Shown here: positions 13,672 to 15,949 of the stretch, piece after piece
How the letters are laid out: each line of letters starts with the position of its first letter
Numbering within the stretch: the first letter of the stretch is position 1
Assembly: GCA_947632285.1 (NCBI GenBank)
Contig: CANROT010000003.1
Span: 1-39,448, forward strand
Direction: 5' to 3'
Length of the DNA: 39,448 nucleotides
Origin: an uncultured Clostridia bacterium
Lineage (GTDB): Bacteria; Bacillota; Clostridia; Oscillospirales; CAG-272
Notes under the pieces: model-generated
What the model was told of the DNA's origin: nothing
Databases searched by the model: none
Seen by the model: only the letters and a program-made list of their open reading frames with translations
Position numbers and translations under genes: made by a program

Positions 13672-13700
13672 TTGACATTTCGCCGGCTTTATAATAAAAT
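13672..13700 (+). promoter_or_regulatory. Sigma-A-type promoter of the SipW-type surface protein
   Basis: A consensus TTGACA is followed after exactly 17 bp by TAAAAT. The start codon of the large gene lies 345 bp downstream, so the transcript would carry an unusually long leader. Confidence 0.7.
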
Positions 13701-13709
13701 GAAAATGTA

Positions 13710-13830: not shown

Positions 13831-13846
13831 AATCGGGAGGTTTTAT

Positions 13847-13930
13847 ATGAATAAGGTCAAATTATGCTTCCGAAATACGGGGGGGGGGGTATATCCTTTC
13901 AGGTTTGCTGCGCCAAACGGAAGGAACTGA
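13847..13930 (+). CDS. Possible 27-codon leader peptide with an 11-G tract
   Basis: This short ORF is missing from the track. Its ATG follows a strong site, GGGAGG, six bases upstream, and it encodes MNKVKLCFRNTGGGVYPF... The glycines come from a run of 11 G (13879-13889). The TGA lies at 13928-13930, inside the 5' arm of the terminator-like hairpin that follows. With 12 G the frame would instead run to 14001, and with 10 or 13 G to 13961. It reads in the same direction as the surface-protein gene. I take it to be a regulatory leader ORF; a non-coding role of the region is the alternative. Confidence 0.5.
   Translation: MNKVKLCFRNTGGGVYPFRFAAPNGRN
13879..13889 (+). repeat. Homopolymeric 11-G tract
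   Basis: Eleven consecutive G on the plus strand. Tracts of this length are prone to slipped-strand mispairing. It is the longest G run I noticed in the window. Confidence 0.9.
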
Positions 13931-13959
13931 TCCTCTCGCTGGAAACCGGTTCTTTTTTT
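13921..13959 (+). terminator. Terminator-like hairpin (attenuator candidate) in the leader
   Basis: GAACTG pairs with CGGTTC (one G-T pair), with an inner TCC/GGA extension and possible A-U lengthening at the base, followed at once by seven T (13953-13959). It lies upstream of the surface-protein start and within its transcript, so it would act as premature termination. The stem is interrupted by a small internal loop, so strength is uncertain. Confidence 0.5.
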
Positions 13960-14044
13960 GACACATACTCCACGGATTCTGCGGGGTTGCCGGGGGTATG
14001 AGATCCCCAAATCCCGACAGAAATCTGTTAAAGGAGAAACAAAG

Positions 14045-15949
14045 ATGGAAAAAACAAGGAAATTCAGGATTTCCAAAACACGGCGCGCGATGCTGATGAG
14101 CGTGCTTTCCATGCTGTTGTGCTGTTCCATGCTCGTAGGAACGACCTTTGCATGGTTTACCGACAGCGTAACGTCCGGCAAAAACAAGATCGTCGCCGGC
14201 AACCTCGACGTGGAGCTGTATCACACGAGCGCATCTGTCGAGGACGAGACGAAGATCGAAGGCAAAACGGATCTGTTCCTTGACGCCGACGGCAAACCGA
14301 TCCTCTGGGAGCCGGGCGTTATCGCTTACGAAAACTTCACCGTGAAGAACGTCGGCAGCCTGGCGCTCAAGTATAAGCTGGCGCTCGATGTTGCCGGGAA
14401 GAACACAGTTACGGTAGACGGCAAGACTCATTCGCTTGACGAGGTCATTCAGGTGGCGTTCATCGAAGGGAAGTTTGAAGGCGACCGCGAGGCTGCTCAA
14501 AAGCTTGATTACAAGCCGCTCGCAGACACGGCGAAGACCGGCGTGCTCCTTCCGAAGGACGAAACCACACCCGATAAGGACACCACATCATTTGCAGTCG
14601 TGCTTTACTGGAAGCCCACCGAAAACGACAACCTCTACAATGTCAACAACGGCAAAAAAACCGACGAGCCGGAGCCGTCCGACCGTCTCTGGATCGAGCT
14701 CGGCGTTGACCTGACAGCTACGCAGTATACATACGAGAACGACAGCTTCAACGACCAGTATGACAAGAACGCCGACGACAACCACGGCAATGTCATCGAG
14801 CTGACCTCCGTCGAAAAAGAAGTCAGCTCCACAGAGCTGACGAGCAGCCCGCTGACCTTCGTATTTGACAACACCGCGCCGCTGCCCGAAGGCGAGCACG
14901 AAAGCACGACGGTCGAATTAGAAGCAGGCGCTCTCGCCGCAGGATCTACGAGCGAAAAGCACACCGTCGATCTGACCATCGAGACCGAGTTTGAAAGTTA
15001 TACGGCTATGCCGGACGGCTTTTCCGGCGTTGCAAAAATCGCCCTTTCTCTCCTTGTTGACGGAGAAGAAGTCCACAATTTTGAAAGCGGAAAGAAAGCG
15101 ACGATCACTACCAAAATACCGGCAGGACTGGAAAATGTTGAAGTCAAATATAACGGCGAAGACGGCGAAGATCCCGACAAAACTGATGTAAAATATGATT
15201 CGGACACCGGTGTGCTCACCTTCAAAACCACGCATTTCAGCGAGTTTGAGGTGATTTGCAAATTCCCTGAGCCGACGTTTGCGCAGTTGAAGAGTGGAAA
15301 AGAACTTTTTAAGACCGGCACCGGAATTTTTAACCAATTGCTTAATTACAAGGAGGTAGACCTGAACATATCTTGGCGCGATGCTAATTATTCGGTAAAG
15401 AAAGTTGTCTTCTGCGATTTTGAGGACTTAGCTTCAAAATATGATTTTACACCCACTTGGAATAGTGGTAAAATTATAAGCGAAAATGTAGAAAACGGGA
15501 AGGAAGCAAGAGTTTTCGTCACTTCAAAGAAGGACGCGATGTATATTTGTGTAGAATCTTCGACCGACATCATCTATCTGAATGAGAATTGTAATGGAAT
15601 GTTCAGCAACTTAGGAGGCGTGACGGAAGTTGATTTCGGCGAAAAGGTTTCCTTTGAAAAAGTTAAGGATTTATACAATTTCTTCAACGCTTGTTCCTCT
15701 TTGACAACGGTTAAATTCGGCGACGTTGACGTTTCAAATGCAACCGATTTCGGGTGCATGTTTGGAGAATGCGAAAGCTTGACGGAGCTTGACCTTTCCG
15801 GCTGGAATACACCGGTAAATGCAAACATTACGAAAATGTTTACTTTGTGCTCTAAGCTCAAAACTGTCTATATCGGCGAAGGCTGGAAACTTTCCAAAAA
15901 CGCTTCTGATTTCGGCAGCCAATTCAATGCAACTTTCCAAACAAAATAA
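14045..15949 (+). CDS. SipW-type signal / TasA-like surface protein with BspA-like C-terminus
   Basis: The 634-residue protein begins with a basic N-terminus and a hydrophobic core ending in LVGTTFAWFTDSVTSGKNKI, the typical SipW-dependent signal and CalY/TasA start. A TasA-like beta-sandwich (to about residue 235; AGNLDVELYHT, YENFTVKNVGSLALKYKL) is followed by further beta-rich sequence (about 236-400). The C-terminus is BspA/DUF285-like (MFGECESLTELDLSGWNT, MFTLCSKLKTVYIGEGW). Known relatives form biofilm fibres or adhesins. The track start (TTG 13958) is wrong; ATG 14045 follows AAAGGAG. No sortase motif or membrane tail is visible and no sipW signal peptidase gene is in the window. GC falls sharply along the gene (35/60 in 14281-14340, 19/60 in 15421-15480), suggesting the C-terminal part has a different origin. 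Confidence 0.87.
   Translation: MEKTRKFRISKTRRAMLMSVLSMLLCCSMLVGTTFAWFTDSVTSGKNKIVAGNLDVELYHTSASVEDETKIEGKTDLFLDADGKPILWEPGVIAYENFTVKNVGSLALKYKLALDVAGKNTVTVDGKTHSLDEVIQVAFIEGKFEGDREAAQKLDYKPLADTAKTGVLLPKDETTPDKDTTSFAVVLYWKPTENDNLYNVNNGKKTDEPEPSDRLWIELGVDLTATQYTYENDSFNDQYDKNADDNHGNVIELTSVEKEVSSTELTSSPLTFVFDNTAPLPEGEHESTTVELEAGALAAGSTSEKHTVDLTIETEFESYTAMPDGFSGVAKIALSLLVDGEEVHNFESGKKATITTKIPAGLENVEVKYNGEDGEDPDKTDVKYDSDTGVLTFKTTHFSEFEVICKFPEPTFAQLKSGKELFKTGTGIFNQLLNYKEVDLNISWRDANYSVKKVVFCDFEDLASKYDFTPTWNSGKIISENVENGKEARVFVTSKKDAMYICVESSTDIIYLNENCNGMFSNLGGVTEVDFGEKVSFEKVKDLYNFFNACSSLTTVKFGDVDVSNATDFGCMFGECESLTELDLSGWNTPVNANITKMFTLCSKLKTVYIGEGWKLSKNASDFGSQFNATFQTK

Follow-up and report, generated by a model that had tools for sequence, protein, structure and literature searches.

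A probable phase-variable translational attenuator, built on a poly-G leader ORF, precedes SipW/TasA-like surface genes in uncultured gut Clostridia

Introduction

Classical poly-G phase variation, as in Neisseria, Campylobacter and Helicobacter, places the tract within a surface gene or in its promoter. Leader peptides of the erm type are regulatory in another way, and respond to drug-stalled ribosomes. Such translational attenuators (ermC, ermB) combine a leader ORF bearing its own Shine-Dalgarno (SD) site with mutually exclusive stems, and a ribosome on the leader opens the fold that hides the downstream SD (see also PMC5118997). The end point of a leader peptide can also be moved genetically: in Streptococcus gallolyticus, the transcription terminator before pil1 and pil3 is governed by GCAGA repeats in a leader-peptide gene, which move the stop of that gene (Danne et al. 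2014, PMC3894217), with low expression when the stop lies 49 bp before the structure and high expression when it lies 4 bp before the structure or inside it. In Helicobacter pylori, the small RNA RepG binds a G-repeat in the tlpB mRNA leader, and variation of the repeat controls expression (PMC8295292).

Here we analyse a 39,448-nt stretch of DNA (the window) from an uncultured Clostridia bacterium, represented by a 2.2-Mb metagenome assembly of 213 contigs that is 94.55% complete. A first-pass annotation had proposed an attenuator, switched by a G tract, ahead of a surface gene in the window, and had considered phase variation through a leader peptide unusual; rightly so, though pil1/pil3 provide a precedent (PMC3894217). 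We put the probability at roughly three in four that the system is a phase-variable translational attenuator for SipW/TasA-like surface genes. As in pil1/pil3, repeat slippage in a leader ORF would move its stop upstream of surface genes (a surface appendage in pil1/pil3), but the repeat is poly-G in place of GCAGA, the structure hides the SD of the gene in place of forming an intrinsic terminator, and, in several genera, the unit recurs ahead of a large family of paralogues. It shares the design of the erm-type leaders outlined above, whereas the ribosome's end point is set by a genetic change of frame, with no inducer implied. Its G-repeat in an mRNA leader would be of the variable type found at tlpB, where the repeat is the pairing target of the small RNA; here, in contrast, the tract lies in a translated leader ORF with a conserved frame. 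Classical poly-G systems likewise have a homopolymeric G tract at a surface gene, but not in a separate leader ORF ~150 nt upstream. The general idea is already known from S. gallolyticus pil1, acting via a terminator; of the poly-G, SD-sequestering, multigene form we found no description in the open-licence literature searched, nor in Rfam.

Results and discussion

Anatomy of the window leader

All features described here lie on the forward (+) strand. A consensus scan found a candidate promoter, TTGACA-17-TAAAAT (13672–13700; 11 of 12 matches), from which a putative leader mRNA would start near 13707. The leader ORF has the SD GGGAGG at 13835–13840, a GGAG-type site such as precedes nearly every homologous leader ORF, and begins with ATG at 13847; as assembled, with 11 G, it encodes MNKVKLCFRNTGGGVYPFRFAAPNGRN and ends at an early stop (13847–13930), the predicted OFF frame. 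Neither strand of the window has any run of eight or more G besides the 11-G tract itself, our proposed slippage site (13879–13889), which has G7–11 tracts as counterparts at the equivalent place in homologous leaders. Further downstream lie a seven-T run (13953–13959) and the base stop, TGA (13959–13961), which has a counterpart in all leaders, mostly TAG. Frame computation places the leader stop at 13930 with 11 G, at 13961 with 10 or 13 G (the predicted ON frame) and at 14001 with 12 G. The first-pass annotation had described this layout (GGGAGG, leader ORF, 11 G, seven T and stop at 13930) and these stop shifts, and both were reproduced.

The downstream gene (14045–15949, +) has its own SD, GGAG, at 14033–14036 and encodes a 634-aa SipW/TasA (camelysin)-type secreted protein, with PF12389 (E = 1.5e-5) at the N-terminus of the product and PF03382 (E = 8.2e-9) matching its DUF285 repeats.

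Homologous leaders and their distribution

The N-terminal part of the window gene occurs in 18 copies in its own genome, two of them truncated by contig ends. A tract of 8–11 G stands before 13 of these paralogues, so that the genome holds at least 13 leaders; one further leader lies at the end of contig C182, and three paralogues (L040, L041 and L051) have a different leader that is free of the tract. The genome contains 14 distinct G tracts of at least nine, and 11 of these fall within leaders of the family, ~150 nt upstream of the paralogue start codons; it is this association across the family that goes beyond chance.

The leader ORF, whose conservation the first-pass annotation had taken as a test of its proposal, is indeed conserved: homologous leaders precede SipW/TasA-like surface genes in the window's own genome and in seven others, belonging to at least two families of one order. 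These are the rabbit-gut MAG CANQGK01 (13 leaders), JAAWQR01 (= G033), CASTST01/G264, G394, G109, G387, where the gene behind the leader differs in its signal region (TLAYLTD type), and G433, from another family of the same order. A structure search of 391 genomes at class level matched no genome besides the window's own, and no match came from ten further species of the genus; the distribution is patchy. Throughout, the plan is the same: SD, start codon, ~7–13 codons, G7–11, ~60 nt, base stop, RNA structure, SD and SipW/TasA-like gene.

Several relatives depart from this plan. Tract-less relatives (L040, L041, L051, L028, L031 at 10790 and L032 at 8559) carry another conserved leader, with GATTACATATTGTCATTG near the SD, which had no Rfam match at L041, L051 or L031. 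One SipW/TasA-like gene (L084, G107:C132) has a similar RNA structure with neither G tract nor leader ORF. In many leaders (e.g. L044, L031 and L091) a long inverted repeat, such as GGCTATCCGACGGC...GCCGCCGGATAGCC, lies directly 5' of the leader SD, constant in position and different in sequence from leader to leader.

Reading frame and tract length

A slippage-prone repeat lies within an SD-bearing leader ORF in 38 leaders (G7–11, a few tracts interrupted), and every one retains an SD and a start codon whose frame runs into the tract. Past the tract, all 38 have one frame that reaches the base stop and another that closes early. Compared with dinucleotide-shuffled spacers, which are open in a mean of 31% of cases, the base-stop frame is open in 37 of 37 leaders, while the +1 frame closes before the base stop in 36/38 and the +2 frame in 25/38, counts that are inflated by the relatedness of the leader sequences. 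The base stop abuts the RNA structure and the early stops lie, nearly all, at least 16 nt upstream of it; frames computed for all leaders show that tract length decides whether the stop falls next to the structure or well short of it. Selection at the peptide level was not detected in the leader, with pN/pS at 0.94 (bootstrap 0.87–1.02) and values near 1 in all frames, with saturation.

By assembled tract length, 34 leaders divide into 18 base-stop, 15 early-stop and one read-through, to which four leaders read by hand add three early-stop and one base-stop. In the window's genome the early-stop frame is found in 10 of 13 leaders, that of the window gene included; of the 13 in the rabbit MAG, one reads through and the other 12 are in the base-stop frame. 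Phase-variable families often show few members ON, a pattern from which the rabbit MAG departs. Closely related leaders can differ in state: L053 (9 G) and L077 (10 G) have the same 45 nt upstream of the tract and are 88% identical downstream of it, yet lie in opposite frames, as do the neighbouring paralogues L105 (10 G) and L106 (9 G) and, for the same gene in related species, L081/L032 (G9) and L083 (A+G7). These differences, between paralogues and in one cross-species pair, and with tract lengths read from metagenome assembly, are indirect signs of slippage. Viral contigs, when searched, yielded no length variant of the window leader. In two leaders (L022 at 776 and L025 at about 5826) the tract is broken by a single T (GGGTGGGGGG-type), and both are fixed in the base-stop frame, as if locked.

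A covarying structure around the gene's Shine-Dalgarno

Immediately 3' of the base stop, most leaders carry an arm, GCACTCC or GCGCTCC, complementary to the gene SD GGAGTGT, and the arm–SD pairing closes a long stem around the hairpin CGGCATTT...AAATGCCG with its inner G-rich/C-rich helix. In the window the arm comprises the T run and CATACTCC (13951–13971); in ensemble folding it pairs with the SD at a probability of 0.99, CTCC (13968–13971) with the gene SD and the T run with the start-codon region. Arm and SD are brought side by side in the predicted fold by hairpin II (13972–14028), in which CGGGGTT (13982–13988) pairs with AATCCCG (14010–14016) and GGGG with CCCC, a fold supported by compensatory changes: the homologous helix is CGGCATT/AATGCCG elsewhere. 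The window gene has its own compensated version throughout, with CGGGGTT/AATCCCG, CTCC/GGAG and the T run/start region.

Across 25 pairs and 34 distinct leaders, 83.7% of cells pair, compared with 36–49% when the partner is slid, although derivation of the scored structure from one of the compared sequences favours it over the slid controls. Changes on both sides occur at 13 of the 25 pairs, and the covariation score is 0.198 against 0.135 when shuffled (0/500), values inflated by kinship among the leaders. Within the arm–SD helix, four of seven pairs show double changes, one of them appearing as A-U, G-U, G-C, C-G and U-A, and permuting the SDs among loci reached the observed arm complementarity in 0 of 5000 trials. 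RNAalifold on the full alignment recovered four pairs, those of the central helix alone, since the alignment was off at the SD ends; the long fold was recovered from subsets after realignment. Rfam had no match to the window leader at E up to 5, and nothing reached the gathering score at six other loci.

A second fold also covaries. Stem I, in which CATACTCC (13964–13971) pairs with GGGGTATG (13993–14000), has a covarying counterpart in the homologues (13964–14000 in the window) and is compatible with a pseudoknot through the CGGCATTT helix; because it covaries alongside the arm–SD fold, the element looks bistable. An H-type pseudoknot as the sole structure was rejected, as ensemble folding paired the arm with the gene SD, and was kept as an alternative fold. 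Comparison of the sequences shows the anatomy and frame design of the leader, together with its base stop and a covarying RNA structure.

Folding further predicts what a ribosome at the base stop would do. A free arm leaves the SD with a mean predicted accessibility of 0.10, and an arm masked by a ribosome at the base stop raises this mean to 0.44, against 0.31 for controls in which the spacers are shuffled and 0.58 for 14 relatives that lack the tract; for the window gene, masking raises the accessibility of the SD from 0.31 to 0.94 and that of the whole ribosome-binding site (RBS) from 0.26 to 0.92. The SD is of AGGAGG type in the tract-less genes and mostly AGGAGTG, matching the arm, in those with a tract. 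Folding and covariation together thus indicate an erm-like arrangement, in which RNA of the leader region sequesters the downstream SD unless the leader is occupied.

Proposed mechanism and competing readings

The model that we infer adds to this slippage of the tract in cells, action on translation and the identity of the ON state. The leader ORF would be translated from its own strong SD, and the G tract would slip within it, setting the reading frame that follows. In one frame, the ribosome would stop next to the anti-SD arm and mask it, leaving the RBS of the surface gene free (ON). In the others, the leader would end ~16–55 nt earlier and the arm would stay free to pair with the gene SD around the conserved hairpin, blocking translation (OFF). 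For the window gene this predicts OFF with 11 G and ON with 10 or 13. Since it is the gene's SD that the conserved structure hides, translation is the most likely level of control. If true, phase variation via a moved leader-peptide stop is more than a streptococcal oddity: it would form a reusable cassette in uncultured gut Clostridia, placed ahead of a multigene family of surface proteins and acting on translation and not on transcription termination, and the predicted ON/OFF state of each surface gene could be read from metagenomic reads by counting G.

A more elaborate version, which we regard as speculative, is a conserved bistable RNA switch that has been copied along with the paralogous genes: its two covarying folds would compete, and a one-base change of leader frame would decide which of them forms, giving each of more than 12 surface genes an independent, heritable translational setting; the leader may also hold a ribosome at its stop and so sense a cellular signal.

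One alternative concerns which of the two states is ON. Stem I would leave the SD free, and if folding kinetics favour it the polarity could reverse: trapped during transcription when no ribosome occupies the leader, stem I would keep the gene open, and a ribosome at the base stop would instead allow hairpin II to form and the released arm to hide the SD, making the base-stop frame OFF. Stem I is transcribed first, is stable alone (mean −17.7 kcal/mol) and covaries with the central helix as a pseudoknot, and nearly all leaders of one MAG are in the base-stop frame. The hidden-SD fold is nevertheless favoured over the best SD-free nested fold by a mean of 8.5 kcal/mol (by more than 3 in 35 of 36), energies that compare nested folds with the pseudoknot left out, and repeated translation of the leader would keep the arm masked. 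We consider reversed polarity improbable, and we infer rather than read off the polarity because nested folding leaves out the pseudoknot.

Equally doubtful is a phase-variable transcription attenuator of the S. gallolyticus pil1 type, in which the leader ribosome would prevent a terminator hairpin from forming before the gene. The leader logic is the same (PMC3894217), and the window has both a hairpin and seven T, which the first-pass annotation had read as a terminator. The small hairpin before the T run, however, has five pairs (13938–13950) and is at chance level, with one terminator-like site found in the window against 0.9 expected in shuffles, and it lacks a counterpart elsewhere: the other leaders have no U tract 3' of a hairpin, and a conserved U run after a stem is absent from the leaders. 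In the predicted fold, the T run of the window is taken up by pairing with the start region of the gene, and it is the SD that the covarying arm matches. Of the proposed attenuator, the leader stop moved by the tract and, with strong comparative evidence, a probable attenuation before the surface gene therefore stand, whereas the terminator does not. Rho-dependent termination in the untranslated spacer may also contribute an explanation of this transcriptional kind.

It is very unlikely that a small RNA acting in trans (RepG/tlpB type) recognises the G tract according to its length and that the reading frame is incidental. The target of RepG in tlpB is likewise a G-repeat in the leader of an mRNA, but the base-stop frame is open in every leader tested with the +1 frame closed in all but two of 38, and an in-frame start codon with an SD is retained before each tract. 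Because the structure lies ~45–70 nt from the tract in nearly all leaders, farther than is known for stimulatory elements, we rejected programmed ribosomal frameshifting at the tract stimulated by a pseudoknot.

Other G tracts in the genome

Three further tracts in the window's genome lie outside the leaders described above. A Ser/Thr-kinase-like gene (L057, G000:C13:19695-19703, −; by eye, VIHRDIKAENI ... YLIDFGIAR) is, as assembled, split between two frames at a 9-G tract; another tract length would join the halves, making it a possible phase-variable kinase. At L065 (G000:C82:6496-6505, −), ten G directly before a TATAAT box, upstream of a gene that by eye is DUF285-like, look like a poly-G promoter-spacer switch, a second route in this genome. 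At L071 (G000:C107:3645-3653), a tract of nine C/G lies within a long ORF that stays in frame and whose product looks, by eye, like a subtilisin-like protease.
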